Source of the DNA: an uncultured Paracoccaceae bacterium
GTDB lineage: Bacteria; Pseudomonadota; Alphaproteobacteria; Rhodobacterales; Rhodobacteraceae
Assembly: GCA_947498415.1 (NCBI GenBank)
Contig: CANMKB010000001.1
Coordinates: 1 to 64,000, forward strand
DNA: 64,000 bases
Direction of reading: 5' to 3'
Below the pieces are notes generated by a model. It was not told the DNA's origin. It searched no databases and saw only the letters and a program-made list of their open reading frames with translations. Position 1 is the stretch's first letter; each line of letters opens with the position of its first letter. Position numbers and translations under genes: made by a program. Positions 44,672-62,736 of the stretch are shown one piece after another.

Positions 44672-44746
44672 GCTGCTGTAGCTCAGTGGTAGAGCGCACC
44701 CTTGGTAAGGGTGAGGTCGGGAGTTCAATCCTCCCCAGCAGCACCA
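44672..44746 (+). tRNA. tRNA-Thr (GGT), CCA present
   Basis: GCTGCTGTAGCTCAGTGGTAGAGCGCACCCTTGGTAAGGGTGAGGTCGGGAGTTCAATCCTCCCCAGCAGCACCA; anticodon loop TTGGTAA. Confidence 0.95.
44724..44746 (+). repeat. att direct repeat, tRNA side
   Basis: TTCAATCCTCCCCAGCAGCACCA, the 3' end of tRNA-Thr. Confidence 0.93.
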
Positions 44747-44803
44747 GAAAATATCCTTTGAGATCAATATAATACATGAAATCAAGGAGTTTCACTCATC
44801 ACT

Positions 44804-44849
44804 TGGGTTAGATTTTGTGTTAGGTTTTGTGTTAGGTGGCACTAACACA
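44804..44849. promoter_or_regulatory. putative integrase arm-site array (left end)
   Basis: TGGGTTAG 44804, TGTGTTAG 44816, TGTGTTAG 44828 in direct 12-bp steps, then inverted CTAACACA 44842-44849. Confidence 0.75.
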
Positions 44850-44870
44850 AAAACCCGAGTAGATGCCGAA

Positions 44871-46445
44871 ATGACCAAACTCCCCAAAGTCTCTGGCGCA
44901 CAACAACGTGGCGGCAAATACTATTTCAACCTGCACATTCCCGTGCAGCTTAGAGAACTGTACGGAAACAAAGCCGCCTTTCGCGACACCATGGGCACCA
45001 GTGACCCTAAAGAAGCTGAACGGAAGATCAGGCAGCAAAAGACAATCTTCGATCAGCAGGAAGCCGACAAGAAACGATCTGACGACAAGGCTCGACTTGC
45101 CAAGCTATTGACTGAGGATCAGCGAGTGAAACTAAAGAGCCTTGAACAATCCGGCGGACTTCTGAAACACATTTCTGACCTACGCGAAGTCGTAGCCTTT
45201 AACGCAGTTACGATGGGCGAAGATGACCGCGAAAGGTCAGATTTGGAGCAAACAATTGAGCATGCTCAAGCGGCATCTGATCACGAATTTGGAAACAGAG
45301 TCCTTGCGGAAATACGCGCCAGCAAACGCATTGCGGCCTCGATTGGGGAAAAAGTCCCACCACCAAGAAGTGGCCTTGATGAAGGAGTTATGGGCCTGCA
45401 CGATGTCGCCGAAAAATTTTTGGATGCGAACGAGTATACGATCCATAATAGGCAGAAGGTGCATTACTCGTTGCGCCGCTGGACTGAATTGCATGGCGAC
45501 ATCCCTTTGGAAAAACTGGAACGTCGCCATCTGAACGAATTTAACGAAGCCCTCAAAGAGCTACCCCCTGCCCTTGGGGACCACCGCAAATTGAGCTTTC
45601 AGAAATCAGTCGCCAAACGAAAACGCGATGGCAAGGAAGCGATCAGCTTCAAGTCGCGCGAAACCTACATATCCCACCTCAAGAGCCTAACGGCCTTCGC
45701 GCTGGACCCCATGGGGGAACTGTCGAGCGATCCCTTTGCCGGATATAAATTGATCAAACCAAAGGGAAAGCACAGTCACGCAATGGAAAAGGCAAGGAAA
45801 CCTTTTTCACCATCGCAATCACGCAGAATCCTAAACTTTGCAAAAAGCACATTCGATGCAAAAATCATGGACCACTGGATGCCGATATTGGCGGCTTATA
45901 CCGGTGCGCAGCAAGAGGAGCTAGCTCAACTAAGATTGGACAACATAGTTCTGATTAAGAGGCATTGGTGTATTCGCATCACTGATTTGGACCCGAAGCA
46001 AAAGGTCAAGAGCAAGCGCAGCATACGTACCCTGCCCGTATCACCTGTTTTGATTGATGCTGGCTTCTTGGAATATGCGAACCGCCGCCGGCACGCTGAC
46101 GCGACTTGGCTCTGGCAAGAAAGCTTCACAGACAAGCACAAGAATACGCGATTGCAAGACATACGCCCCGATAATCGGGGGCGCTTCGCGACAAATTTCG
46201 GGCAACGGTTTGCGCGTAAAGTTCGCGCCCCCTTAAATCTCACAGAACCGGGGATGACGTTTCACAGTTTCCGGCACTCTTGGGCAGACGCTGCTAGAAA
46301 AGCGAAATTGGACCCAGAAATACGCCGCAAGATAGCGGGACGACTTGAGGACTCCGACCCTGTAGAAGCGGACTATGGAGGCGATGACTTGCTTGACGAG
46401 AAGTTGGAAGCCCTAAACGCCGTTGCCCCCTTTGTTGCTAACTGA
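44871..46445 (+). CDS. int: tyrosine-type site-specific integrase
   Basis: Catalytic motifs TGAQQEELAQLRLDNI and FHSFRHSWADAARKAKLDPEIRRKIAGRLEDSDPVEADYGGD; N-terminal KVSGAQQRGGKYYFNLHIPVQL. Start at MTKLPK preferred, because the ORF-track start lies inside the arm-site array. Confidence 0.92.
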   Translation: MTKLPKVSGAQQRGGKYYFNLHIPVQLRELYGNKAAFRDTMGTSDPKEAERKIRQQKTIFDQQEADKKRSDDKARLAKLLTEDQRVKLKSLEQSGGLLKHISDLREVVAFNAVTMGEDDRERSDLEQTIEHAQAASDHEFGNRVLAEIRASKRIAASIGEKVPPPRSGLDEGVMGLHDVAEKFLDANEYTIHNRQKVHYSLRRWTELHGDIPLEKLERRHLNEFNEALKELPPALGDHRKLSFQKSVAKRKRDGKEAISFKSRETYISHLKSLTAFALDPMGELSSDPFAGYKLIKPKGKHSHAMEKARKPFSPSQSRRILNFAKSTFDAKIMDHWMPILAAYTGAQQEELAQLRLDNIVLIKRHWCIRITDLDPKQKVKSKRSIRTLPVSPVLIDAGFLEYANRRRHADATWLWQESFTDKHKNTRLQDIRPDNRGRFATNFGQRFARKVRAPLNLTEPGMTFHSFRHSWADAARKAKLDPEIRRKIAGRLEDSDPVEADYGGDDLLDEKLEALNAVAPFVAN

Positions 46446-46677
46446 CGGCGACGATCACCAAACAAACAGGTCGCCACACCAATCACCTGCCCGTTTGTGT
46501 GGATGGTACTGTCGCCCGCTTCGACGATGCCGAAGGTATCCAGCGTTTAGCGGCCCCCATACTAAGCTTTGAAATTTCTGCGCTGGCGTTTGAGCCCAGA
46601 GTGACCGATGCGGCGCTGTATTCCAATTACCGCTCTTGACACCGAGGACAAATAGCAACGGGTGAGTTGTAGCCGCA

Positions 46678-47175
46678 TTATCGCTCTTGGAACCGACCCG
46701 GTCCGATGCGCCACCTGACAATCAAGGCAATGGCAATACCAGCAAGGACAAACTGCAACGTATTTTGGGTAAGAACCCACCATCCATAAGATGTAAGGAT
46801 GCCGTCAACTGATCGGACAAAATCTCCCCCGCCAATTTGCGACTGGAAGTTCGGGTTTTGAGAAACCCGCCAGCCTTGGTATCGGCCAATGGCTATGCTT
46901 ATCGCCGCGAATAATACAGCGATGGCGCCACCCCAAAGACCTGCCGAAACCCAAGAAACGGGGTATTTCATTAGCCCTCGCAAGATTGGCGCTCCAATCA
47001 ACCAGCATGCACCATAAGCTACCGGCAATCCAAAGACAGCAATCCACGGCAAAGCAAACGGATTGTGCAACAACGAAGGAAGCGCCACCACGAACCAGCC
47101 AAGTAGGGCAGCAGAATTAACCGCTTTGCGATGTTCTTTTCTTGTGTAAGCTGTCGTCTCGTTCATCGAAAACAC
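46678..47175 (-). CDS. integral membrane hypothetical protein
   Basis: 165 aa with several hydrophobic segments (AALLGWFVVALPSLL, LWGGAIAVLFAAISIAIG, FVLAGIAIALIVRW). Confidence 0.6.
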   Translation of the reverse strand: MFSMNETTAYTRKEHRKAVNSAALLGWFVVALPSLLHNPFALPWIAVFGLPVAYGACWLIGAPILRGLMKYPVSWVSAGLWGGAIAVLFAAISIAIGRYQGWRVSQNPNFQSQIGGGDFVRSVDGILTSYGWWVLTQNTLQFVLAGIAIALIVRWRIGPGRFQER

Positions 47176-47693
47176 CTAGTTACCCATAAAATTTGTGTAC
47201 ACTATCCAAAGGGGGCTTTGAAGATGGTGTTGAGACGCGTGCGACAGCCCAAGTCTGCCAGACTTAGTTGGCTTTTCAGTGTGTATCGCGGCACACAGCC
47301 TATGCTGTTTGTTGATTTTAGAAACCGCAGATTAGAACTACATGCTTCAAAAGCCGACCTACGCGCATCCGCAGCGAAAACTAGCTCCGTCCGCACAACC
47401 GACCCTCATTGCAAGATCGCCTACTCACCTGCCAGTAATCAGCAACCCGCGCAGCCCAATCAATAGTTTGGCAGGCTGACAGGCACCTTCGCTTTCAAGT
47501 GTCCAAGATTCTAAGTCTGTGCAACCGAATGAGCTGATACTTGTCCTGACTGAAACAGGCCCGCGTTAGCGGGAAATCCTGCCCTATATTTTCTACTTTT
47601 CTATGACCCGTTTTCGTCCGTTCACTGGATTTTTTGGCCTAGTTGTGGTACAAAGAGCGTACCTTACCCTACCCCCGAAATCAGTGAGAACAC

Positions 47694-47951
47694 ATGACAT
47701 TTTCCCTAACTCGGGACGATATTTCCCGTTGTACAAACTCTGGACGCACACGCGTCCGTTCAATGATTAACACCCCTTTCAAGCTCCCTTTTCAGTCCGA
47801 CATGCCCGGTCCATCAGGTGGCGCTTCACGCGAACGATTTCGACTGAGCGACATCCTCGCCCGGATCAAAACCAAGGCGTGGTTCCGCCCTGAAATGGAA
47901 GCGATGCTTGCTGCGACCGATGCAGCCTACCGACAGGAACAACTTGCATGA
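47694..47951 (+). CDS. small hypothetical protein, possible HTH/excisionase-type DNA-binding protein
   Basis: 85 aa, MTFSLTRDDISRCTNSGRTRVRSMI...RERFRLSDILARIK; ATGA overlap with the next gene. Confidence 0.45.
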   Translation: MTFSLTRDDISRCTNSGRTRVRSMINTPFKLPFQSDMPGPSGGASRERFRLSDILARIKTKAWFRPEMEAMLAATDAAYRQEQLA

Positions 47952-48430
47952 ACCAAATCTCAATCCAAAAAGAAATCGATGCGGAAAACCGCCGCCAAAG
48001 CCGCATAGATGAGCAATTGGCGGTGACATTGCCGCACCAAATGAAACGCTATGAGGCAATTCAGCAGAAGACGGAAAACGCCCTCTACCGTGTGCATGGA
48101 AACCGACTGTCGCCGCAAGTGATTGACCGCATGGTAGCGGGGTTGATCCTTGAGCCATCAGTTTTGTGCTCGATTGGTTCCAGCGAAATCAATGAAATGC
48201 CTTCGGATAATATGGGTTGGGACCGAATGGCGCGTGATCTTGTCGAACGTGAGCCATTGGCACAGTTGAGCATTCAGCACAGCGATGCAGAATTGAAAGA
48301 GAAACTGCGCCAAGAGATCACCGCTGCAATTAATCCTAGCCAACGGCTGGCGATGGCACGATCTGGTGAACTTGATAACTATGTCGATCAACGTGTGACT
48401 GCCAAACTAGATGAGCGGGCTGGATTTTAA
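47948..48430 (+). CDS. hypothetical protein
   Basis: 160-aa ORF coupled to both neighbours by overlapping start/stop codons. Confidence 0.65.
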   Translation: MNQISIQKEIDAENRRQSRIDEQLAVTLPHQMKRYEAIQQKTENALYRVHGNRLSPQVIDRMVAGLILEPSVLCSIGSSEINEMPSDNMGWDRMARDLVEREPLAQLSIQHSDAELKEKLRQEITAAINPSQRLAMARSGELDNYVDQRVTAKLDERAGF

Positions 48431-48942
48431 TGTCTAGTGAGATTGCGACCGAACCGGGTTCTGAGCCACTCAAGAACAAGCGCTGGGAACAGTTCGCCAT
48501 CGCGAAGTCTAAGGGCCTCAACAACAAAGAGGCCTATAAAGCTGCCTTGCCCAAAGGTGTTGTGCAGTCCGATAACTCCCTACGCGTTTCAGGATCAAAT
48601 CTGTTCAAAAAACCAGAGGTCAAAACCCGCGTTTTTTGGCTGATGGATAAAGAGACAGTGAAACGCTCACGCAGCGATGCCACACCGTTCACTGAACAAG
48701 AGCTATTAGCGATCTGCCTTGAGGTCACTGAGGCCTTGGAAAAGGCCTTCTACGCGGCAGAGAAAGCGAGCGTCCCACCCCAATCCTTGGAGCGCCTCAA
48801 GGGCGTCTTGGCATCACACCTGTCGCGGCAGGCAACGCTTATTGACCAAGAGACCCCAGTGAAGTCTGACGAACTCCCTGCCGACATTGCGGCGATGATT
48901 ACTCGCATGGAAAATCTAGGTGGCTGTGCATGCCAACACTAA
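48430..48942 (+). CDS. terminase small subunit-like protein
   Basis: NKRWEQFAIAKSKGLNNKEAYKAA ... VSGSNLFKKPEVKTRV resembles the N-terminal HTH of Terminase_2-type small subunits (Q-F-A...A-Y..A...G..L...P.V..R). Confidence 0.55.
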   Translation: MSSEIATEPGSEPLKNKRWEQFAIAKSKGLNNKEAYKAALPKGVVQSDNSLRVSGSNLFKKPEVKTRVFWLMDKETVKRSRSDATPFTEQELLAICLEVTEALEKAFYAAEKASVPPQSLERLKGVLASHLSRQATLIDQETPVKSDELPADIAAMITRMENLGGCACQH

Positions 48943-49280
48943 AGCAATCCACAGCAGCGTCAGCTATCCGGCTTTTACACGTCAATTTGGACGATCTTCG
49001 GAGCTACGCGCTGGACTTTGATCCGCACCAAATTGATCGGCTTATTAAGTCAGCGGATTTGATTTCAGGACAATTGAAAAAGCTGTTCGAATACGTTGTG
49101 GAAACTGACGCGAATAACGCCCCGAAGCAACCGCCCGGTACGATAATCGACATAAGCGCCGTGTCGCGCTTCTTAGACTCTGTACAGGGTAATCACATCT
49201 GCGGACGTTGTGGGGGCCTCATAGCAGACCCTAGCACCTTTGGTGTCCATTCACAGCCTGACACAGACAACGACGTTTAG
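48930..49280 (+). CDS. hypothetical protein with CxxC motif
   Basis: 116 aa; ICGRCGGLIADPSTFGVH; overlaps the preceding gene by 13 bp. Confidence 0.55.
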   Translation: MPTLKQSTAASAIRLLHVNLDDLRSYALDFDPHQIDRLIKSADLISGQLKKLFEYVVETDANNAPKQPPGTIIDISAVSRFLDSVQGNHICGRCGGLIADPSTFGVHSQPDTDNDV

Positions 49281-49503
49281 AACGGCCTACCCTCCTCAGA
49301 ATTCGCGTGTGAGGTCTGGCTTCCCTCGCTCGCGAACGGCGCTGGTTCTCCTTTCGCTGCGCCTTGCCCCCGCCAGTTTCTTCGCCGAGCTGGCGGGCGG
49401 CTAAACAAAAGCCACACCACGCCATGGTGATCGACGAACGGCGATAACGAACCCAACCACCTCAACCCCGACTAAGAGGAATCCAAAAATGAAGACTTAA
49501 ATC

Positions 49504-49866
49504 ATGCAAAATCAACTTACACGCCCTCAAAAGGCAGAAGCCTATTTAGCACTCATTGGAGCGTTTGGGCCAGAATCCGAGCCTTTCGCGAATGCCATTT
49601 GCTTCGAGACTATCGACAGCAGCATAGGCCTAACGTTCACTCTCCACGAGGGGATCGCGTTTGCAGTCGAGACATCCGGCAAAGAGCGCCTGACCTTAGA
49701 CGTGTCGGAGATACTCGGATATGGGGCACAGGCTGTGACACGCGCGATGGCGATGGCAGGGTTCTTTCCCGTTGGCGACGGCGAAACGTTCACCAATTCC
49801 CCCGATGCAGCGAACACACACCGCATCAAGCTACCTCACGACCTAATCAGCCGTTGGTACGAATAA
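49504..49866 (+). CDS. hypothetical protein
   Basis: 120-aa ORF beginning MQNQLTRPQKAEAYLALIGAFGPESEP. Confidence 0.55.
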   Translation: MQNQLTRPQKAEAYLALIGAFGPESEPFANAICFETIDSSIGLTFTLHEGIAFAVETSGKERLTLDVSEILGYGAQAVTRAMAMAGFFPVGDGETFTNSPDAANTHRIKLPHDLISRWYE

Positions 49867-49932
49867 CGAAACAGCAATGGAGCGGGCAGTCATGCCCTTC
49901 CCGTTACCTTCTTTCATTTGGAGAAACCGCGA

Positions 49933-50235
49933 ATGGCAGGATTGCCAGAATACAAGATTGACCGCTTCGGGAATGTTTGGGGTGAGCTTAACAAGGCCAC
50001 AGGCGCGGCCCACATTCCTTGTGTAATCAAATGGGGTGACGACGACCGGAATGTTTTTCTGTGCGAAGACAAAGACGACCTTCGAACGATAATTCTTGCA
50101 GTAGCTAAAGAAAAAGATCACCGATTCAACCCAGAGGACGTGATCAAGCTCATGACTCAACCTGTATTAACACAGCTTGAAGTCACCAGCGGATTGCGAC
50201 AGTCGAGTATCGATGAGCGCTGGAACGTGTGGTGA
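49933..50235 (+). CDS. hypothetical protein
   Basis: MAGLPEYKIDRFGNVWGELNKATGAAHIPCVIKWG...; about 100 aa, internal start preferred over 49918. Confidence 0.5.
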   Translation: MAGLPEYKIDRFGNVWGELNKATGAAHIPCVIKWGDDDRNVFLCEDKDDLRTIILAVAKEKDHRFNPEDVIKLMTQPVLTQLEVTSGLRQSSIDERWNVW

Positions 50236-50596
50236 TCGTCAGAATTATGAATATTTATCATAATATTAATGAATGTCACTCATGTATAGAATGGCGTGAT
50301 GAATTTACCACAACATATGGTACGACAATGCGACCCAAAACAACATATTGTGTTTATAAATTGTATAGCTAGGTGGTAAATTAATCTTGCAAAGCCACTC
50401 GCAATATTGCAGCCACAAACCATCGACTCAACACGACTTAAGTGATAGGGTCGCGGACATAAGCAAAACGGGCCACCCCTTACTGCAAGATCATTGGCGT
50501 GATCTTACGGGCGACCCGTTCAAATTAACTGAGAAGAACCTAGCACAACCGGCAAAGTAGAGCAAGTTTTTCTCCCCAAGGAGCATAACAATTTAG

Positions 50597-53500
50597 ATGC
50601 ACAAACTCAATACCAACCCCGCCTGCGGGAACAATACCGGCTTGGCCAATGCAGCGCAAATTCCAACAATTGAAGCAATCCGCCAGCTATTCGACTTGGA
50701 CGGTACTAACGAACAAATCTTGACAGGATGCACCGCCTATATTGAGGCACACGGATATGACGACGCGCTGAAAGCGCTTCTGGATGGTTTCAATAAGATT
50801 GATGGTCGTGATTGGGCGATGATGCTGGAACAGTATGTGCCTGATACTGACGCGCGTAGCGCGGGACCTGCGCCTGAAATCCAGAAGATGAATGATGCCG
50901 ACCTCTTGGGCGAGGATCACCCAGAGATGCAAGAGTTATTGCAAAAGCCATTCGTCTTCATGACCGGCTCTATGTACGGACAGAAAGATCACCGCAACAC
51001 ACAGGACGGGAACTGGAATCGGGGCGAAATGCCGTTGGTACAGTGGATCGCTGGTGGCGATGAAGGTAAGACCCCTTGGGGATTAACTCGTCACCCAGTC
51101 GCGAAACGTAAAGAAGGCCCAGCAGTAGTTCTGGCAGATGCGCTGGACGGTGCCCGCAAAGATGCCGCCATTAAAACGATGTATGCCATCGGGCTGGACA
51201 TCGACTCCGGTGCTGCACTTGACGACGTACTGGTTACATTGGAGGAGAAAGGACTGTTCGCGGTCGTGTACACTTCTTTCCGCCACGGCACGACCGAGCT
51301 TGTGCTAATGCACGACGACATCATGCGTAAGCTGAAACTGGACAAGTCCCCGACGCGTGCGCAGATTCAAACTTATCTTCGCGAGCATCACAAAGATCGC
51401 TACGACGCCTCGTTTATTGATCAAATCAAAGTCGTGGATGCGCGAAAGCAAACACCTGATGGTTTGCGCACGATCCTAAAGACCCCGCCCCTTGATAAGT
51501 TCCGTGTGATTTTGCCTCTTTGGGAACCGGTGGAACTGGCTGATCTTGGGGCAACGGTTAATGACTGGAAAAATGTTTGGGCAGATGCCGTTACCGGCGT
51601 CGCGGTAAACACGCTTGGCGTCAACTTCGATGCAACATCTTGCGACGTGAATCGGCTTTTCTATGTTCCCCGACATCCCGCCGATGCAGAAGATTGGTAC
51701 TCTGCGATTGTCCAAGGCCGTCCACTGCGCTTCGAAGAGATCGAGCCATTCTCTAAGACCGCTTACGTTAAAGATCGTGACGCAGGCGATGCTTTCGCCC
51801 AAGCTGGCGGCGGCTCAGGCGGAACGGATACGCGAGAAGAGTTTTTAACGCCTTCTGGACGTAATTTGAACAAGTGGCACAACAAGCACAAAGATCGTTG
51901 GCTTGCGGCGGACGCAATCGAAACGTTCTGCCCGGACAAGGTTCGTGTCGCTGGTGGGGAAAAACCCGGCACAGTTCACTTAGAATGCCCTTTTGAGTAC
52001 ATACATTCTTCCGAAGGTGGCACCGCAACTATGGCGATGAACCCCGACGAAAACGAAATGGGCTACTGGACCATCTTCTGCAAGCACGACTCCTGTCAGG
52101 AGCGTGACAAACTTGAGTTCATCCAAGAGATGTTGGCGCAGGGCTGGTGTGAAGAAGATGTTTTGTGGGATGATGATTGGAACATCCCCTTACCTGACGA
52201 AGATTTAGAGGATGGCGAAAACGAATCCGAACACCACGTCTACAATCTCGATCCTGAAAAAGCGGCAGCAGCGGTAAATAAGGAGGGTATCGACAAAGGC
52301 ACGAGCGTAGAGAAAATTCGCGAGTTTCTGGGGCACTATGTCGAATGCGACTCCGTGACCAAGAACAACCTAACCGATGTGTTGGCGGGACCGTCGCGCG
52401 GTAAAGGTGTTGCCGCTCTATCCAACAAAGAAGTCTCAGAGATTTGGGCCGGTCTGGACAAGCAGGCGGCACGCAAGAAGATCGAAAAGGACGCCAAGAA
52501 GCGCGAGAAGTTAGATGCGCCTGACTATCTGCCATTAGAACAGGCGACCAAAAACACGGTTGAGAAAGCCGCCAAAGCTTCGAAATGGCTTCCCGAAGGC
52601 TTCACCTATCAAGACGGGTATTTTGGCAAACTTGTCACCGTTGGGAATGACCTGAAATTCAACCCAACGTGCAATGCCTTTGAGGTAGTCTATTGTGCGG
52701 ACGGCTCGAAAGGTCTGACGCGAACAAATCAATTGACCATTCGATACATGCACCGTTCTGAGAATTTGGGGATTGTGGAATCCACATTCCGCATCGGCGA
52801 CACGTATAAGGACCAAGGGGCACTGTTGGGCGACCTGCGCAACGAAGGCCTAGAGTTCTCACCTGATGCGCCTACTCAAGACATTCTGGCGCTCTTGCGG
52901 GCTGTATCGTCGGAACGCGAAGGGGTGTATCGGGCGCAGTCGGGATGGACCGATGCACGTGACGCATTCATCGCCCCAACCGGTGAAAGCATCAAGAAAG
53001 ACGACGATCCGCGCCTATACGTTTTGGAAAAGGCTATGCGGGTCTCTGGCAAAACCTGTGGCACTGTTGTTGAGTACGCAGGCGCTATGAACACAGCAAT
53101 TCGCGGTAAGAATGCGAAGCTGTTCCTTCCCGGTGCCCTATTGGGCGCAGTCGGCAATCTTGCGGATTTCATCAACACTGAACATGCGGTGATCATTGCC
53201 AACGAAGGCAAGAAGAACAGCGGTAAAACCACGTCTTTGAAAGCTGGTGTGTCGTTCTTTGCCGTCGCATCGGTTGAAGGCCTGATGTTTTCTGCAAACG
53301 GTACTGAAACCGCATTCGAAGCAATGGCGATGAAAGCATCTGGCGCAGCAATGGCACCAGATGACTCCGGTGCATCAAAGCGCACAGCGGATGACGAACA
53401 GCGCCAAATCTACCAGTACGCAAACCGCATGGGCCGTGGTCGCGGGACCACCACAGGTGGGCTACAGGAGCTTAATAGCTGGAATGGTGCTATGGGTATC

Positions 53501-54415
53501 AGCACCGAGCGAGGCTTGCTGACACGCCTTCAAGCAGAGGGCGCGGATACAAAGAGCGGGGTGCAATCGCGGGTGTTCACTGTCAGATATGATGCAGCCG
53601 AAGTGCTTGATAAAACCGCTGACGCGGACCTACTGAAAGCCTATGAAGTTATCGCCCATGGCGGTGTGTATGGCGTGGCATGGAAGCCATTTGTTACCCG
53701 ATTGTTGGAATTGGGTGTTAAAGTGGTGAAGGGGCGCGTCAGCGCCTATGAGAAGGACTGGGGACACGATGCCCATGGCGGTGAACGTGTCGTGACGACT
53801 GGTGCCCTACTCGCTGTAGCCTCTGAGATTATGCAGGAAGTGAAGTTGTTCCCAGCCAACGATTACGATGTGAAATGGGAAGACGGCAAACCGAAGGTTG
53901 ACGACGATCTTTCGAATGAAGGCGACGGCGGGCTCAACGTTCAGGTGCTACTGAAAGAGGCGCTGGATGATACAATCGCGCAACGTGCCAATGTGCTTGA
54001 TACAGGACAACAAGCATCGGATAGCCTGCGCATTGAAATCATCAAAGCACTGAATAGTCGCCGGATCGTAGATTGCGCCATGGAATGCGAGCACTACGCT
54101 GGGCCTCTAGGCTACTATAAATTGGACGAGAACGCGCCCAATGACGAAGACATCGATGACGGAACGGGCATTTCGAAGAGCATGTTGCGCCGCCAGTATC
54201 ATCTACCATTGGATCGCTTGAATGAACTGGGGGTAAAGATCGAGCTTGCGGGATTGGTGGCACAACTGCGCGAAGTGGGTGCAATCATCGAGCCAACAGG
54301 CAACAAGCGGTATGCCAAGAAAGGAACTTGGCCCAACCCACCGGGCGAAGGTGGCGACATCCCTTCCCTGCGGATTAAAGGTGAATGGGTCCACGGGACC
54401 ACGGCGGCGGATTGA
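50597..54415 (+). CDS. large DUF927-type primase/helicase-like protein (1272 aa)
   Basis: AVIIANEGKKNSGKTTSLKAG (Walker A-like), APDDSGASKRTADDEQRQIYQYANRMGRGRGT, NSWNGAMGISTERGLLTRLQAEGADTKSGVQSRVF, as in DUF927 helicases. Confidence 0.75.
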   Translation: MHKLNTNPACGNNTGLANAAQIPTIEAIRQLFDLDGTNEQILTGCTAYIEAHGYDDALKALLDGFNKIDGRDWAMMLEQYVPDTDARSAGPAPEIQKMNDADLLGEDHPEMQELLQKPFVFMTGSMYGQKDHRNTQDGNWNRGEMPLVQWIAGGDEGKTPWGLTRHPVAKRKEGPAVVLADALDGARKDAAIKTMYAIGLDIDSGAALDDVLVTLEEKGLFAVVYTSFRHGTTELVLMHDDIMRKLKLDKSPTRAQIQTYLREHHKDRYDASFIDQIKVVDARKQTPDGLRTILKTPPLDKFRVILPLWEPVELADLGATVNDWKNVWADAVTGVAVNTLGVNFDATSCDVNRLFYVPRHPADAEDWYSAIVQGRPLRFEEIEPFSKTAYVKDRDAGDAFAQAGGGSGGTDTREEFLTPSGRNLNKWHNKHKDRWLAADAIETFCPDKVRVAGGEKPGTVHLECPFEYIHSSEGGTATMAMNPDENEMGYWTIFCKHDSCQERDKLEFIQEMLAQGWCEEDVLWDDDWNIPLPDEDLEDGENESEHHVYNLDPEKAAAAVNKEGIDKGTSVEKIREFLGHYVECDSVTKNNLTDVLAGPSRGKGVAALSNKEVSEIWAGLDKQAARKKIEKDAKKREKLDAPDYLPLEQATKNTVEKAAKASKWLPEGFTYQDGYFGKLVTVGNDLKFNPTCNAFEVVYCADGSKGLTRTNQLTIRYMHRSENLGIVESTFRIGDTYKDQGALLGDLRNEGLEFSPDAPTQDILALLRAVSSEREGVYRAQSGWTDARDAFIAPTGESIKKDDDPRLYVLEKAMRVSGKTCGTVVEYAGAMNTAIRGKNAKLFLPGALLGAVGNLADFINTEHAVIIANEGKKNSGKTTSLKAGVSFFAVASVEGLMFSANGTETAFEAMAMKASGAAMAPDDSGASKRTADDEQRQIYQYANRMGRGRGTTTGGLQELNSWNGAMGISTERGLLTRLQAEGADTKSGVQSRVFTVRYDAAEVLDKTADADLLKAYEVIAHGGVYGVAWKPFVTRLLELGVKVVKGRVSAYEKDWGHDAHGGERVVTTGALLAVASEIMQEVKLFPANDYDVKWEDGKPKVDDDLSNEGDGGLNVQVLLKEALDDTIAQRANVLDTGQQASDSLRIEIIKALNSRRIVDCAMECEHYAGPLGYYKLDENAPNDEDIDDGTGISKSMLRRQYHLPLDRLNELGVKIELAGLVAQLREVGAIIEPTGNKRYAKKGTWPNPPGEGGDIPSLRIKGEWVHGTTAAD

Positions 54416-54515
54416 ACTATACCTATAATTGTACTTCTAATTGATTGATAGAGGCGGGCGTTAGCCCGCCTTATCTATTTTAAGGCACCCACCACCTATT
54501 TTCAGTAAAAATCCC

Positions 54516-54828
54516 CGTTGGACAGTGTCCAACGAGTGCCCAACGGCTGCCCAACGATTTTTCCCTTTATAATCAACATTCAACGCCGCAATTGGACAAA
54601 TTGGACCCGTTGGACACGAAAATAGAGAGGCCTCCCCGAAACGGAAAAAATGCGCACTGGTTCGCGAGTGCAGGGTGTAAAAAAAAAACGATTCAGCGGG
54701 GCGCTCTTATATTTCTGTCCAATTTGTCCAATGTGTCCAACGAGCATCGAAAACCCCTTATTTATAAGGCTAAAGTCGTTGGACAACCGTTGGATTCTCG
54801 TTGGACACCGTTGGACAATTGTCCAACG
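54516..54828. repeat. iteron-like array of CGTTGGACA 9-mers (candidate replication origin)
   Basis: About 15 exact or near copies in both orientations, including CGTTGGACA-G-TGTCCAACG (54516-54534), two three-copy 9-bp tandem arrays (54591-54617, 54716-54742) and the perfect 20-bp palindrome CGTTGGACAATTGTCCAACG (54809-54828). Confidence 0.75.
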
Positions 54829-55322
54829 AAATGGCGTTTTTAGGGGTATTTTTGCTCAAAAGTCGAAAGTTGGTTTGTTATTTACCCCCTCAAATCCGGG
54901 AAAATACCCCAAGTTGAGGGGGTAGATTACAAACGGACTCGCACCACTTTGAGCACCGGGCAGTTTTTCGGGATCATCCCACCAATCGCGTTAATACCCC
55001 CAAGATTTGGATTAGTCTGGCATTCGCAGGTTAACGGCAAGCGCCGCCACCTTTCGCCAACTCTCTCCTAGGCTGCATTGATGAGAAAGTTACGCATCCG
55101 CCTTATTTCATTTAACGAACCCACCCCCACGACAAAATAACACCAAAGCCTCCATACCCCCGCCAATCGCGAAAACACGCCCCACGTCGGGCGCACGGCT
55201 CGACCCGGTCGAAATTTCTCTGAATTAGCAGGCACAAACATATCGCGCCCAACTCCCGCAAGGGTTGCATAAGGGATCAATTCCTTTAGTCATGGAATTG
55301 AGCAGTACCAAAGGACTTCGGA

Positions 55323-55709
55323 ATGTCAGACCAACTCGTTAAATATCTTCGCGCACAGGCGGAACAATTCTCCCAATATGCTGCGGAAATCTCTAAGGGC
55401 GAATTTCAAGACGCACAGCTATCTGAACTGGCACCGCCATTAATTGAAATGGTGGCCAAACTATTTGGTAAAACATCGGAAGAGTTTAGCGAGTGGGCAG
55501 ACAACCTCGACCCAGTAACTGCGGCGAAGAAGGTTGCGGAGATAGAAGCAAAATTCGCCACTATCATGGGCGAAAGAGACAAATCATATCCGCCTGAATC
55601 CGTCGAAGCAGAGAATTCAGGCGAGGAAATCCCAATGGTCAAATCGCAAGCCACTTATGTCTCGATCAATCCAGCCTACATGAGGCTGCATCCTGAAAAG
55701 TTTTCGTAA
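55323..55709 (+). CDS. hypothetical protein
   Basis: 128-aa acidic ORF MSDQLVKYLRAQAEQFSQYAAEISKGEF. Confidence 0.6.
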   Translation: MSDQLVKYLRAQAEQFSQYAAEISKGEFQDAQLSELAPPLIEMVAKLFGKTSEEFSEWADNLDPVTAAKKVAEIEAKFATIMGERDKSYPPESVEAENSGEEIPMVKSQATYVSINPAYMRLHPEKFS

Positions 55710-55817
55710 ATCGAGCAACGAGATAGCCAAAGACGATTATGAACAAATGTAGCCCGCGAATGTTTAGTTTTGGCGGGGGAAAAGACCTATACCCAAATGA
55801 AATAAACCGGTTCGATA

Positions 55818-56468
55818 ATGAAATTACGAGATAGACTAAAATCAATAAGACGCGGCGATAAAGATAGGATCACATTGGCAGCAAAGTGCTTTGTTAGACC
55901 GGTTTCGCGCTACAAGATACTAAATGAAAGAATTGAAGGCCTATATTCTGACCTTACAGATGAAGTCTACGTTATCGAATTAACATCGAAGACTGACAAA
56001 ACAGACAAAGAAATCGTGTTTTTGGGTAATGTCGCTGGGCCACACCTACTTAAACTTGCGAGACAAGAAGCACCGCCGTGCTTTAATATCGTGCGCTCGA
56101 CCACGATGAGCGAAACCCCATTGACCGTTGGAACTCGTAGTTCACCACCAAAGCCATATAGCCCATTCAACAAAGAGCTTTATACAGCAGTCTTGTTGCT
56201 TATGCTGCAAAAGAAGTGGTCCGCAAAAAATCTTCGCGAAGACGGTAAGCCAATTTCCGATTGTCTGACAAAATTGAGCTGGAATGGCGACGAGGACCTG
56301 CCGGATTATTGGGCCAGATCGATAAACACAATATACATCAGATATAAGACCAGTGCTCAAGCAATGCTGAACGAACTACAAAGGAATACCGGAAACATTC
56401 GACCGTTGAAGTTTCCACTTTTGCAAAAGGCACTACGGAAAGACGGCGTTGAGGACATACGCCTGTAG
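55818..56468 (+). CDS. hypothetical protein
   Basis: 216-aa ORF MKLRDRLKSIRRGDKDRITLAAKCFVRPV; no motif recognised. Confidence 0.6.
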   Translation: MKLRDRLKSIRRGDKDRITLAAKCFVRPVSRYKILNERIEGLYSDLTDEVYVIELTSKTDKTDKEIVFLGNVAGPHLLKLARQEAPPCFNIVRSTTMSETPLTVGTRSSPPKPYSPFNKELYTAVLLLMLQKKWSAKNLREDGKPISDCLTKLSWNGDEDLPDYWARSINTIYIRYKTSAQAMLNELQRNTGNIRPLKFPLLQKALRKDGVEDIRL

Positions 56469-56531
56469 TTTGTACCAGCCTCCTTTGAGCAAGCAGCAGC
56501 ATCGCCCATTTCCACCGAGCTTAGTCTAGTA

Positions 56532-56648
56532 CTGTCCGATTTGAGTAAAAGCACACACGACATCTGAAAATCGCCCAAATGTGTCAGATTTAACTTATCG
56601 AATCACTTATCGGACAGTAAGATAAATCCAGACACTCAAATCTGACAG
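56532..56648. promoter_or_regulatory. putative res-like recombination/regulatory site for the adjacent resolvase
   Basis: CTGTCCGATTTGAG (56532), GTGTCAGATTTAAC (56581), inverted CTTATCGGACAG (56606), inverted ACTCAAATCTGACAG (56634-56648), just upstream of the resolvase gene. Confidence 0.6.
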
Positions 56649-56659
56649 AAAGGGCTTTT

Positions 56660-57232
56660 ATGGGAGAGATTATCGGATACGCTCGCGTTTCCTCGCGCAC
56701 ACAGTCATTAGATATTCAACGTGACGCCCTGACGGGCGCAAATTGCACTAAGATATTCGCAGAGAAGTTCACGGGCACACGCACCACCGGTCGCGTGGAA
56801 CTAGAAAAGATGTTGGAGTACGTGCGGGAAGGTGATGTTGTATGCGTCACCAAACTGGATCGTCTTGCACGGTCGTTGCCTGATCTACTCAAGATCACTG
56901 CCAAGCTGGATACCAAGAACGTTGAGTTGCGCTGCTTGGATCAAGCAATTGATACAACAACGCCAGAAGGTCGCATGACCTATCAGATTCTGGGTGCAGT
57001 CGCCGAATTTGAAACGTCCATTCGCAAGGCGCGTCAACGCGAAGGCATTGATGCAGCGTTAGCCAAAGGACCCGACAGCCCGTTCAAAGGGCGTCCAGCT
57101 ACCATCGAATACAACAAAGTAGCGGCTGCGGTCGAAAAACACGGGAACAAAGCCCAAGCTGCACGGTCGCTGGGCATTAGCCGTGATAGCCTCTACCGCG
57201 TTTTGAAGGCTGGACCTGCTACGCAGGCCTGA
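56660..57232 (+). CDS. serine recombinase, resolvase/invertase family
   Basis: IIGYARVSSRTQSLDIQRDAL, VCVTKLDRLARSLPDLLKI, GAVAEFETSIRKARQREGI, C-terminal HTH AQAARSLGISRDSLYRVLK. Confidence 0.95.
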   Translation: MGEIIGYARVSSRTQSLDIQRDALTGANCTKIFAEKFTGTRTTGRVELEKMLEYVREGDVVCVTKLDRLARSLPDLLKITAKLDTKNVELRCLDQAIDTTTPEGRMTYQILGAVAEFETSIRKARQREGIDAALAKGPDSPFKGRPATIEYNKVAAAVEKHGNKAQAARSLGISRDSLYRVLKAGPATQA

Positions 57233-57566
57233 CGCAGTCCTCTAGCGACAACGACCAACATGCAAACAATCTTACTCATCTTCATTCTATTTATTTAGCA
57301 ATCCTCCTTCGGAGACTTGTCTTCGAAACAAGGCTTCTGGTGATCGCGACCAACACCCAATCGCGTTTCGCAAGGAACTCTGTTCATCGATTCACGGAAT
57401 AGATTGAAAGTGTGATCGCTTGTTGAGCTTTCAGGTTGATGTGTGCCGCCGTTAGGCGGTCCCCCTCTGCCAACCCTGATACCTTGGTCGCGCCGCCTGA
57501 GCCGTCACGAACCCAATCTATACCAACACCCCAGCACCGCCCTGACTGCACCCTGTCACGTGTCGT

Positions 57567-57605
57567 GATTGATCTTGTTTGATGATGAATCATCAGCGAT
57601 CAATC
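57567..57605. other. nested stem-loop
   Basis: GATTGATC...GATCAATC 8-bp stem enclosing TGATGAT-ga-ATCATCA. Confidence 0.5.
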
Positions 57606-57887
57606 GCCTGACATACTGATACTACGTTAAAAAATCGAGGGTCCGCTGACGGCTACCCCACTAGGCCTATCGTGTGCCCCCAGTTGCTGTCCTGATGTAC
57701 TGGACCACAGGATCAACAAGCTAACCCCCAAATGAAAAACAGGGGTACCTTTTCGCCAACATCGTTTCCGTTCCAGACGCTAAGCGCGTCCCGAAAAGAT
57801 TCAAAATTTTCTCAAGGTGTTAATACCGCCAAAAAATCGTCAGATTCAAAGTCCAAAACCGCAGCACGAATTTACATTGAGGTAATT

Positions 57888-58214
57888 ATGCAAAAAGCAC
57901 TCATTTCTCTGCCCCTACTCGCAGCACTTTCAGCGTGTGTTGAACCAGTCATCCAGACACAAGCAGGCTACCCGCCGGTTGCCCCTGAACAAGTCCAAGT
58001 TTCGTTTGCAAAGTCACCGACATGCGCCAATGCGCAAGAAATTGGCTACATGCCACAAGTCGGCTCGAACAAATACGCACAGGATCGCGCGATCAATCAG
58101 ATAAGAACGCAAGCGGGCGCACGGGGTGCAAACCTCGTTCTACTTGAAACTCAAGCCACGAGCTTGTTGGGCGATATGCTCATCAACGCACGACTTATTC
58201 GCTGCCCAGTCTAA
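57888..58214 (+). CDS. putative lipoprotein (DUF4156-like)
   Basis: LLAALSACVEP lipobox; NKYAQDRAINQIRTQAGARGANLVLLET; start at the internal Met after GAGGTAATT. Confidence 0.65.
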   Translation: MQKALISLPLLAALSACVEPVIQTQAGYPPVAPEQVQVSFAKSPTCANAQEIGYMPQVGSNKYAQDRAINQIRTQAGARGANLVLLETQATSLLGDMLINARLIRCPV

Positions 58215-58250
58215 CCCAATTTTAGCACTCAACCACATTACGAGTACCAA

Positions 58251-58883
58251 ATGGATTACATGTTTACCCTGATCAAATTTTCAGTTCTGGCGATGATTGC
58301 AATTGCCGTGCTGTACATCATCTTTGAATTTTCACGCCAAAATAGGATACAAGCATCTGCCGAAAATCTTGTTGATCGCGCCCTAAACAAGTTTCCTACC
58401 TACAGAAACAAACCCGCCGTGTTGGGCGAAGAACTTGTTCTATTGATGGATGAAAGCAAACAGACTGCGCTTGTGGCGACTGCCGAAGGCAACGCGAAAG
58501 AAATCCCGTTCGCAGACTTTACCGGAATTGAAGTTCTCGAAGATGGTCACACTGTTTCAGAGACTCGCCGAAAAGGAACACTCGGAAGAGCTGCCGCTGG
58601 TGGGCTACTAGCAGGTGGTGTCGGCGCTGTTCTTGGTGCAGTCTCCGCTGGCAGTGAAACGCGCCACAAGGAGGTCGTTTCCAACATCACGGTCGCTGTC
58701 AGAACAGAAGACGCAAGCTTCCCCGTTCTTGCTTGGTGCACATTCGCGCCCACTATTGGCTTGGAGCACATGAGCGATGTCGAGGTGCAAATGCAGCGCA
58801 GAGCAGCAAATGACTTTGCTGCTCAGTTTGCTCCGATTTTTGCAGTCAACGCCAAGTCAGACCCGAATCTCAACACAATCTAA
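58251..58883 (+). CDS. membrane-associated hypothetical protein
   Basis: 210 aa; N-terminal TM FSVLAMIAIAVLYIIFEF and Gly-rich hydrophobic AAAGGLLAGGVGAVLGAVSAG. Confidence 0.6.
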   Translation: MDYMFTLIKFSVLAMIAIAVLYIIFEFSRQNRIQASAENLVDRALNKFPTYRNKPAVLGEELVLLMDESKQTALVATAEGNAKEIPFADFTGIEVLEDGHTVSETRRKGTLGRAAAGGLLAGGVGAVLGAVSAGSETRHKEVVSNITVAVRTEDASFPVLAWCTFAPTIGLEHMSDVEVQMQRRAANDFAAQFAPIFAVNAKSDPNLNTI

Positions 58884-58958
58884 TCGGGGTCAAGAAAACA
58901 GAAAGCTCTACGCTTATCTCGTTAGCAATCAACATTCTGGCACCGTTTATTGCGCGAT

Positions 58959-59279
58959 ATGAGTTCAGAATTCTACTTACCGAGCAAACTATACGCTCAA
59001 GACATGCATCTTGGAGAAACTGCAACCCTTGCAGCTTCTTCATTCATTGTCGTGCTGGCAGAACCGGGTGCGGGCAAGACCAAATTGATGGAGAGCTTTG
59101 CGCTCCGTCTCAAGTCCGAGCTTATTACAGCAGGCCGGATTGCGTTTAGCGGTGCACCACAAAAGGGCCAACCTCTTTTGATCGATGCCTACGATGAACT
59201 CGCCAAAATCGACGCGGAGGTGACCCATCCCCTTTTACTGAACAGCTCTGAAATTTCCAATAACGGGCATATGATCTGA
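58959..59279 (+). pseudogene. truncated P-loop (STAND/NACHT-like) NTPase N-terminal fragment
   Basis: VVLAEPGAGKTKLMESFA (Walker A) and PLLIDAYDELAKID (Walker B/DEL), then the reading frame collapses where the convergent gene begins (59235). Confidence 0.6.
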
Positions 59280-60260
59280 CATTTCAAAATCTGTATCTGT
59301 TGTACTGACAGAGACAACTTCCACGTTTGGCGACACAACGAAGCCGTCAATAATAGTGAGATAGTTTTCTCCACGGACAAAGGCTTGGTTTACAGTCCGA
59401 ACCGTAGGGAGCGAAGTATCAATCGCGAGCTTCCAGCCCTCGGGAATACTCTCTTGCGGAAAACGATGGATCCAAAACAGGTCTTCATCAGACGTTTGAT
59501 GCGGAAACGCTGTTTCGGCCAACTCCATGTTCCAATCCCCGCCTATGACGACATGAAAACCGGCCTCATAAAGACTTTTAGCATAGCTAAATACGGAATC
59601 TATCTGTTGGCGTCGCAAATCGCCTCCATCATCGAAGGCTGAAAGATGAATATTTATAAAGGCCCATTCAATACTTTCAGTAGCGCCCGGCATCTTCAGG
59701 ACCTGCATACCATACTGACGATTTAGGAAGCCAAACAGAGGTTCTGGCTCTCCCACAATGGGAAATAGTTCGCCAGTAGTAGCCTTCAGATCAGTAGTAA
59801 TGACGGTCCCATGTTTCAGCCTAATGGGCCACGGCAGAAGCTGTGAAGATATATCTGGACGCCACCAGAAAACATTAGATCCAGCCGTGTTTTCAAGAGG
59901 TGTTGCTACCGACTTCCATAGTGAAAGAGGTCCTGAATAAGAGACTTCTTGAAAAAATTGAACGTTAGTTGCAAGCTGACCTGCAACTTCAGTTATTTGC
60001 TCAATGTTCTTATCAACGATGGCCCTAGAAGGGGGAAATAAGTTCTCACCCCCATCGACAGCAAAATCTGACTCTCGACCGAGCCCTGCATACCCCAAAT
60101 TCCATGTACCCACAGAAACAGTGTCTGGCATCCGCATTTTAGCTCGAGAGGCGCTACTAAAATCGACTGTCCTCGCTGAAAGCACCGCGCCGCGATTCAC
60201 AACTGTAACAACGATGCCATACAGTACGATGGCACCAAAAATGATCAAAGCCAGCTTCAT
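59235..60260 (-). CDS. membrane-anchored endonuclease/exonuclease/phosphatase (EEP) family protein
   Basis: N-terminal TM MKLALIIFGAIVLYGIVVTVV; EEP motifs GTWNLGY, FFQEVS, NIHLSAF, GGDWN, IDGFVVS, SDHMPVIG. Confidence 0.82.
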   Translation of the reverse strand: MKLALIIFGAIVLYGIVVTVVNRGAVLSARTVDFSSASRAKMRMPDTVSVGTWNLGYAGLGRESDFAVDGGENLFPPSRAIVDKNIEQITEVAGQLATNVQFFQEVSYSGPLSLWKSVATPLENTAGSNVFWWRPDISSQLLPWPIRLKHGTVITTDLKATTGELFPIVGEPEPLFGFLNRQYGMQVLKMPGATESIEWAFINIHLSAFDDGGDLRRQQIDSVFSYAKSLYEAGFHVVIGGDWNMELAETAFPHQTSDEDLFWIHRFPQESIPEGWKLAIDTSLPTVRTVNQAFVRGENYLTIIDGFVVSPNVEVVSVSTTDTDFEMSDHMPVIGNFRAVQ

Positions 60261-60342
60261 ATTTGTATCCTCATTGCAAGCAAGTACCTGCTATCTTCTT
60301 TTGGATGGCATTTGGGATCTTGGCCTTACGCCACTCATCCAC

Positions 60343-61680
60343 CTAGCCCGGTTTCAGCTTAGAATTTTCGAGAGCTTTGCTACGTTCGCCGTCTCTATCG
60401 CGTCGCTTATCAATAATCCAGCCTGCGGCGCCTAATGCAAGCAATAGCCCACCCCGATCATTGGTCAATGAGATCATAAAACCTGTCAATCCGCGTCGTT
60501 CTGTCAAGTCAAGGTATAGATCATTGAAGCGTTGAAGCATAATCCATCCTCCGCTTGCAATCTGATCTCGGCTTGCGTCGAGGGCGCTAAGAGCGCCCCC
60601 AAAAAAACCATCATAGACAAAAAAGTGCACAGACCATGCATAGAACGCTATACAGCCGATAGATAGCCACAAAAGCACATCAAATGATCCTAAAGCGCTC
60701 TCCTCGTAGGCTTGTCTGATAGGCGTGTGTTTCACAACATATTGTGTGCCAAAACTGCAAAATACTAACAGAACTAGAGTATTGATCTGATCAACCATAA
60801 ATGAAGCACCTTCCCGAACCTTGCTATAGATTTGCTCGGTGAGAACCATTTTTGCTTCCGGGGAGATATTACCTATGTTGAGGCTAACAAATAAATTATC
60901 TAGTTGTAATTTCACTTCTTGGTAGTCCTGAAACTGTTCAAAGGTTTGAGCAATAACAAGCGCAACAATCATGATTACAGCTGAAAAATTAGTGATGCTG
61001 TAGATTGTGTACGGAACATAACCTCTAGCTAAACGTTTCGCAAAAATAACGCGCTTCTTAACAACACAATTGTTTTCGTCTCTAATGACGCAGTTGTCAT
61101 CGCGCCTACACGTGTAAAATTCATACGCCAAGACAATTAAGCAGACAGCTCCAAATAGACCTATTGCAGGCCATTTATAGCTCGTAATAAGCTTCAAAAT
61201 GCCAACATCTTCTGTGACTAGATTAACTACCAGCAGAATGGTTAAAACCATAGAGAGCGCAGAGATTTCACCATACAAACCTGACTTTGGTGGCGTTAAA
61301 ATAGGTCGTACCCGGCGCTTTTTTGCATCAAGATCACCTTTTATCGCGAACTTGGAGATCCACGCTCGTCCTCCAAAATCATAAGCTAAGAAGGTGGAAA
61401 GAGCCCCAATATTAAGCGCTACAGCTATAATAAAAAGATCAACATCCTCTGTCAGAAAAGTAACTGTCACTAAAATGACAAGGAACGCGGATAGAGCAAT
61501 TATCTCGTGGTGTAGTCCTTGCTTTGGATCAAGCGCGATTGATGACTTTTGACTACCATCTTGGCCGAACGAGTTTCTAATCGCGAGTACCGAGAGCCTG
61601 ATAAAGCGACTTACTTTGTAAACCCAGAAAGTAGAAAGAGCTCCAATACTCAATACTGATGCTATGGTAACAAAATCCAC
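60343..61680 (-). CDS. polytopic membrane protein, co-directional with the EEP gene
   Basis: 445 aa with many hydrophobic segments (IIALSAFLVILVTVTFL, EISALSMVLTILLVVNLV, FGAVCLIVLAYEF, FDVLLWLSIGCIAFYAWSVHFFVY); 82 bp upstream of the EEP gene. Confidence 0.65.
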   Translation of the reverse strand: MDFVTIASVLSIGALSTFWVYKVSRFIRLSVLAIRNSFGQDGSQKSSIALDPKQGLHHEIIALSAFLVILVTVTFLTEDVDLFIIAVALNIGALSTFLAYDFGGRAWISKFAIKGDLDAKKRRVRPILTPPKSGLYGEISALSMVLTILLVVNLVTEDVGILKLITSYKWPAIGLFGAVCLIVLAYEFYTCRRDDNCVIRDENNCVVKKRVIFAKRLARGYVPYTIYSITNFSAVIMIVALVIAQTFEQFQDYQEVKLQLDNLFVSLNIGNISPEAKMVLTEQIYSKVREGASFMVDQINTLVLLVFCSFGTQYVVKHTPIRQAYEESALGSFDVLLWLSIGCIAFYAWSVHFFVYDGFFGGALSALDASRDQIASGGWIMLQRFNDLYLDLTERRGLTGFMISLTNDRGGLLLALGAAGWIIDKRRDRDGERSKALENSKLKPG

Positions 61681-62248
61681 TTTTCATGCCTACCACTTAG
61701 AACTTTCGACAAAAGTCCTCCACCACAAACCGAAGTTCAAGGAAAAACTTGTAGTACAATTGGCTTAATTTTCTGGTTTCAGAGCAAGTGCTATACTAAC
61801 GTTTCTAAAATTTTTGACGGAGAAGCTTCCATCCCCTCACGCAATTTATTCAGTATGCCACTTACCTGCAGATTACTTTAAACTTTTACATAACTCATAG
61901 CGTTTCGAAATTATCCTCTCTATAGAACAAAGTCCCTCATCAAGCCTAGTTTTCTGGAGAGTCTTAAGCGTCCAATATTCTAACAGTCTGTTCAAAAACG
62001 GCCGGTCTACCGTAAGCGGACATTCAAATTTTACGCTGTGGCATCCAGCCTTGGAGTAAAGAGGCAAAAGCGATTGTCTGCTTTGGGCTGGGAGCGGTCA
62101 TCTGGTAAATTTGGAATGGCGTTAACTCGTGGACGAAATTGCGGAGCAACTGCGAAAATATGCACAGACTTTGCACACGCTTTGCACAAAATTAAAATCT
62201 AGCCAACCGCAGCATGAGTAACACCTTGGATTCACTAAGTTTTAAAAA

Positions 62249-62290
62249 GGGCGGTCGAATAGATCGACTTTCGAGTCATCTCGACCGCCC
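62249..62290 (-). terminator. strong terminator-like hairpin on the minus strand
   Basis: GGGCGGTCGA ... GACT-TTCG-AGTC ... TCGACCGCCC, preceded on the + strand by TTTTAAAAA (T-rich tract on the minus strand). Confidence 0.65.
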
Positions 62291-62607
62291 AACGACAGAA
62301 CAGTAATTGATATACGAAATGCAGGCGGCTGATCGCATTGAAGCGCAACAATAAACTCTCTTTGGCACAAGGTCGCAAATCCGCTGTTCCTAGAAGTGCA
62401 AATTGGAAACGCCAATGGCACAATTTAAACAACACCATATTGACGTAGAAGATCACGGCAGGCCACGACCGATCAAAGGGGAGACGGCAAATTGCTTCCT
62501 AACTATGATCGATAAATCCATCCGGATGGTTACGTTGCTTACTCCTTCCTAGCCACAAGAAACGTAGAATCGGCAAAACCAATAGTGATGCACAAAACCG
62601 ATTTTTC

Positions 62608-62653
62608 TGTGTTAGGCATTGTGTTAGCTTTTGTGACACGCGAGACTAACACA
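62608..62653. promoter_or_regulatory. putative integrase arm-site array (right end)
   Basis: TGTGTTAG 62608, TGTGTTAG 62620, degenerate TGTGACAC 62632, inverted CTAACACA 62646-62653; same 12-12-14 spacing as the left end. Confidence 0.75.
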
Positions 62654-62713
62654 CAATTGAATTACCCTTTACTAACAACGCACTAGTGAATTTTTCGCTA
62701 AAGTATTGGAGAT

Positions 62714-62736
62714 TTCAATCCTCCCCAGCAGCACCA
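62714..62736 (+). repeat. att direct repeat, distal side
   Basis: TTCAATCCTCCCCAGCAGCACCA, identical to the tRNA-Thr 3' end. Confidence 0.93.

Follow-up and report, generated by a model that had tools for sequence, protein, structure and literature searches.

The island under study is a mobile element of about 18 kb in a Rhodobacteraceae chromosome, integrated at a tRNA-Thr(GGT) gene, and its two ends carry matching arrays of octamer sites. Reading from the sequence, we hold it very probable that these arrays are the P- and P′-arm sites of the island's own integrase, with the DUF6538 N-terminal domain of that protein reading them and IHF-like bends bridging. The window, by which we mean the whole 64-kb stretch of DNA analysed, contains the target gene at 44672–44746 on the plus strand (ARAGORN). 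The longest exact match between both ends is a 23-bp att repeat (TTCAATCCTCCCCAGCAGCACCA), found on the plus strand at 44724–44746, where it forms the 3′-end of the tRNA-Thr, and at 62714–62736. An empty-site search in one genome of the same genus returned a homologous right flank without an adjoining tRNA, so that no attB is demonstrated, and no close relative was found among phage and plasmid records.

The left array consists of a weak site (TGGGTTAG, 44804–44811), two copies of TGTGTTAG (44816–44823 and 44828–44835) and an inverted TGTGTTAG on the minus strand (44842–44849). At the right end, two copies of TGTGTTAG (62608–62615 and 62620–62627) are followed by a weak site (TGTGACAC, 62632–62639) and by an inverted TGTGTTAG, again on the minus strand (62646–62653); the first three sites of each array lie on the plus strand. 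The copies of TGTGTTAG were located by exact motif search, and the two weak octamers were read at their coordinates and by a grid scan. All eight positions and orientations reported in an earlier, sequence-only reading were thus recovered, together with its start-to-start spacings of 12, 12 and 14 bp at both ends. Its distance of 57–60 bp to the att repeats resolves into 57 bp for the left array and 60 bp for the right, and the linkers of the two arrays are indeed unlike, as it had described. The octamer search that it proposed, run over the whole window, yields six exact copies of TGTGTTAG, every one of them inside the arrays; 0.86 are expected in 64 kb, and none of 100 shuffles reached six. 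Scored against a 0/12/24/38(inverted) grid of TGTGTTAG, the arrays depart from it at 1 and 3 of 32 positions; the runner-up in the window, both strands considered, has 11 mismatches at a place that overlaps the left array, and elsewhere the best score is 13. Across the 3.37-Mb assembly, TGTGTTAG-N4-TGTGTTAG with at most two mismatches is confined to the two arrays. Arm-site repeats are present on both sides of the core, one of the features by which membership of the arm-binding tyrosine recombinases was judged.

The integrase gene (int, 44871–46445, plus strand, 524 aa) was identified by domain search and by alignment with its relatives. Its N-terminus matches DUF6538 (PF20172), annotated as a domain of unknown function, with 41.5 bits against a Pfam cut-off of 27, and its Phage_integrase match of 25.8 bits lies just under the cut-off of 27.1 (E = 1e-5). 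The start had been claimed to be 44871 rather than 44817, and the relatives bear this out, their ATG being situated just upstream of a conserved “LPKVxG.” In L006, L008, L017, L053 and L056 a stop closes the integrase frame downstream of the array and before the start, because of which the array in these islands is non-coding. The window integrase keeps K380, H465, R468 and Y502; relatives covering these positions carry the Lys, H-x-x-R, Tyr and Arg I, the exception being the truncated end of L019. Residue 347 (codon 45909–45911) is Gln in the window integrase and Arg, within a TGAR motif, in 16/16 relatives, and by alignment this position is the catalytic Arg I. In tyrosine recombinases, loss of Arg I should impair catalysis. 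The Gln at Arg I probably leaves this copy of the integrase catalytically impaired, and with it the island may be unable to move without help in trans.

In the mechanism that we propose, the DUF6538 domain (about residues 1–45) would read an octamer of the form TGTnnnAn, and the C-terminal domains of the integrase would act at the 23-bp core in the tRNA-Thr. The order on the circular attP would be right array, 60 bp, core, 57 bp, left array, with both arrays running in the same direction, and an IHF-like bend on each arm would join the arm-bound and core-bound parts of the tetramer, as in λ. Integrase bound at the left array, which is located in the int leader, would probably repress its own gene too. 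Binding, bending and autoregulation are the parts of this mechanism that we infer, autoregulation remaining among them because a search upstream of int on the plus strand found no sigma-70 promoter. Two integrases documented to regulate their own int gene by binding arm sites there are IntS of KplE1 (PMC2951348) and IntS of ICEMlSymR7A (PMC11963761). As to the bends, perfect IHF-like sequences (WATCAANNNNTTR) occur in 5 of 23 left core-to-array stretches (0.07 expected) and in 2 of 15 right ones (0.08 expected), and across the clade the best shared position stays the same on either side of the core. The window island's own sites at these fixed positions are poor, with two mismatches each: GATCAATATAATA on the left (44762–44774, plus strand, index 15 after the tRNA end) and TAACAACGCACTA on the right (62673–62685, plus strand).

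Related integrases, 30–58% identical to that of the window, were taken from Rhodobacteraceae genomes; a single-protein scan of genome contigs found no relatives. A first alignment (A1) was too divergent for patterns and a second set (A2) served, the far ends of the related islands being recovered via the second copy of the tRNA-end repeat. A lack of conserved spacing in related elements had been named as a result that would refute the interpretation of the arrays, and the relatives do keep the 12-bp pitch, the distance to the core and, usually, the inversion of the last site. It is the octamer that varies. The island L002 has TGTGTTAG, the same as the window island; the leaders of others contain TGTCCTAG (L003), TGTGCTAC (L004, L047), TGTGCCAC (L006), TGTACCAC (L005), TGTACCAA (L045), TGTCACAC or CGTCACAC (L007, L008, L017) and TGTCCCAA (L018), among others. 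In members with four sites the left arrays begin 55–58 bp and the right arrays finish 60–62 bp from att, with the inverted site spaced at 14 bp at most ends and at 13 or 15 bp at some. Three-site members (L007, L008, L017) and incomplete right arrays (L004, L045, L018) show that four sites are not obligatory. An octamer defined from the left end alone recurs at the island's own right end in 15/15 islands for which both ends are available, a set that takes in three sister-group islands with TTTGCACA sites; the mean is 2.8 sites at the own right end versus 0.66 at the right ends of other islands. That the octamers at both ends of one element change together supports the earlier reading of the arrays as a conserved protein-binding architecture. 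Where four sites are present, most of the mismatches fall on left site 1 and right site 3 (within-end permutation, p = 0.003 and p = 0.0035, respectively), a result that is suggestive only, the mismatch counts having been read off the array comparison and the consensus octamers chosen by hand.

A sister group (L053, L054, L055, L056, L059 and L010) has TTTGCACA sites upstream of int, at a pitch of 11–12 bp and without an inverted site. A Rhodobacteraceae-type island like that of the window is also carried by the records L045, titled Exiguobacterium profundum, and L047, titled Anaerolineae. L045 aligns with the murA-tRNA-Thr flank of the window over 3.5 kb at 67%, and the two MAGs seem to be misnamed or contaminated.

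AlphaFold2 predicts a strand-strand-strand-helix order for residues 10–77 of the integrase (pLDDT about 90), with strands at 10–13 and 16–19, a short third strand near 40–43 and a helix from 46; the pLDDT is about 88 in the N-terminal part of the full-length model and averages 90.6 for the isolated domain. A sequence profile of the domain had no matches in the PDB. Since a fold search with the small N-domain model gave no significant PDB neighbour, the arm-binding fold rests on the order of secondary-structure elements. Covariation between octamer and integrase was assessed on 18 sequences against a null in which octamer positions were simulated on the tree of the remaining protein; with 1000 simulations the p-values of 0.001 are the lowest attainable, and they are uncorrected for the number of columns. 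A tree-free run, swamped by the split between the Thr and Leu clades, was replaced by this phylogeny-aware null. For octamer position 6, residue 11 comes out best among about 409 columns, Gln going with T6 and Lys or Ile with C6 (exception L003). For position 4 the first and second ranks in the same test are taken by residues 38 and 31, position 4 alone having an excess of covarying columns in the N-domain. In the case of positions 5 and 8, third rank goes to residues 19 and 22, among other columns that are outside the N-domain. The predicted covariation of octamer and integrase N-terminus is seen at position 6 and, less strongly, at position 4; that of positions 5 and 8 is inseparable from shared ancestry.

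The arrangement is not restricted to the immediate relatives. Upstream of 109 related integrases, exact 7-mer direct repeats peak at offsets of 12 bp (23) and 13 bp (27), where the same count in shuffled upstream regions has a mean of 2.1 and a maximum of 7. DUF6538 is present in 13 of the 15 members of alignment A3 and in 10/10 distant integrases with 12/13-bp arrays. A pitch of 12 or 13 bp was found in 15/29 of a phylum-wide sample selected by DUF6538 and in 17/29 of a sample with PF13356, an annotated arm-binding domain. PF13356 had been run as a contrast, and the notion that the 12-bp pitch is a peculiarity of DUF6538 was dropped. In the frequency of this pitch DUF6538 resembles an established arm-binding domain, and the architecture is of a known kind, shared with arm-binding integrases in general.

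Directionality factors (excisionases) likewise bind repeated sites in att arms, and the octamers could be theirs rather than the integrase's, a small ORF just downstream of int (47694–47951) being a possible candidate for such a factor. We regard this as very unlikely. The ORF has weak matches in just 2 of the 13 other islands compared, whereas the arrays are found in all 13, and in L002 the octamer TGTGTTAG is present without any match to the ORF. Moreover, octamer position 6 follows a residue of the integrase N-domain, which runs counter to recognition by a directionality factor, and the factor RdfS has no consensus motif (PMC11963761).

It is highly improbable that the left array is merely an operator or RNA hairpin for int and the right array an unrelated copy. 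Site 3 and the inverted site 4 are able to pair in the int leader, which folds better than its shuffles (z = −3.45), but in 15/15 islands the same array recurs in the non-coding DNA of the right end, its distance to the core being fixed, and it is the direct repeats that are conserved and not the inverted pair alone. The chance that the arrays match through shared ancestry or duplication of the ends, with no function, appears next to negligible. The ends of one island could be copies of each other, and no result favours duplication: the octamers match and the linkers do not, in the window as in the relatives; the grid sites are near perfect and their flanks diverged, most islands having no alignable flanks between their ends; and the octamer sets vary between islands yet agree between the ends of each. 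Arm sites bound by the island's integrase remain our preferred explanation.

About 420–550 bp inside the present right end lies a relic end (62159–62292). It begins with an array on the plus strand (62159–62188) composed of TATGCACA at 62159 and TTTGCACA at 62170 and 62181, the 11-bp pitch and the TTTGCACA type being those of the tRNA-Leu group L053, L054 and L056. A 23-mer resembling the 3′-end of tRNA-Leu(GAG) (62270–62292, plus strand, 3 mismatches of 23) starts 81 bp past this array, where zero such matches are expected. The right half of the window is collinear with the tRNA-Leu island of Roseovarius tolerans (L053/L172), which holds the only match to the C-terminal half of the primase. 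The simplest reading, drawn from this one case, is that a tRNA-Leu island gained an int/att module of the tRNA-Thr type beyond its former right end.

The island also encodes a small-terminase-like protein (48430–48942; PHROG 51, E = 1.6e-5), a large primase/helicase-like protein (50597–54415; DUF927) and, by domain search, a serine resolvase (56660). No capsid gene was seen among the island proteins scanned, and with its terminase-like and primase-like genes the island looks satellite-like. The islands of L004, L006 and L053 match both the small-terminase-like and the DUF927 genes. Two cargo genes on the minus strand, 59235–60260 and 60343–61680, had no match in Pfam, PHROG or PADLOC; judged by eye, the former, with its GDWN and SDHMPV motifs, is like endonuclease/exonuclease/phosphatase enzymes and the latter resembles a membrane protein.

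A wider proposal is put forward tentatively, as one that we think somewhat more apt to fail than to hold. DUF6538 might bind arm DNA through a recognition code that can be read, acting on a rigid, same-orientation scaffold of four sites in each of the two arms, with left site 1 and right site 3 held weak to set the direction of recombination; targets might be changed by swaps of whole int/att modules that leave relic ends such as 62159–62292. The arrays give DUF6538 a likely function that is easily tested, and through them the arm sites of many integrases can be predicted from nothing but the sequence. Octamers that vary on a fixed scaffold lend themselves to the study of a protein-DNA recognition code, and the same variation bears on how arm sites set direction.

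Among known systems, λ Int is alike in that its N-terminal domain contacts short arm sites to either side of the core and IHF bends the DNA between core and arms (PMC4880445). Unlike the window island, in which each arm is a same-orientation four-site array with its last site inverted and the N-domain is DUF6538, λ attP has five unequally spread sites (P1, P2 and P′1–P′3). The alphaproteobacterial ICEMlSymR7A also has int adjoining attL and five arm motifs (TGKTGGTATC); the motif is another one, and matching four-site arrays on both arms are not described in the excerpted text (PMC11963761). In KplE1 the arm sites of attL overlap the int promoter and IntS represses itself, as proposed here, but the arm motif is TAAA-type and the integrase a separate one (PMC2951348). 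The mycobacteriophage cluster K attP (CrimD, Pixie) has predicted arm-type repeats flanking the core, arm-site differences tied to N-domain residues 17 and 19 and, in Pixie, direct repeats with one inverted site; these are 11-bp repeats in pairs or triplets, in actinobacterial phages, and the excerpted text describes no fixed four-site grid (PMC3203893). Island integrases with PF13356 (Arm-DNA-bind_3), another arm-binding family, share the tandem short repeats upstream of int, with a 12-bp pitch in 16/29, a comparison made by upstream pitch alone. Arm-binding domains are already known as a class (PMC8138268), as is the pairing of arm-type sites with N-domain residues (PMC3203893), and our literature search found no paper naming DUF6538. 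What is new, as far as could be found, is the assignment of arm sites to DUF6538, the two-arm grid and the set of octamers that change together.
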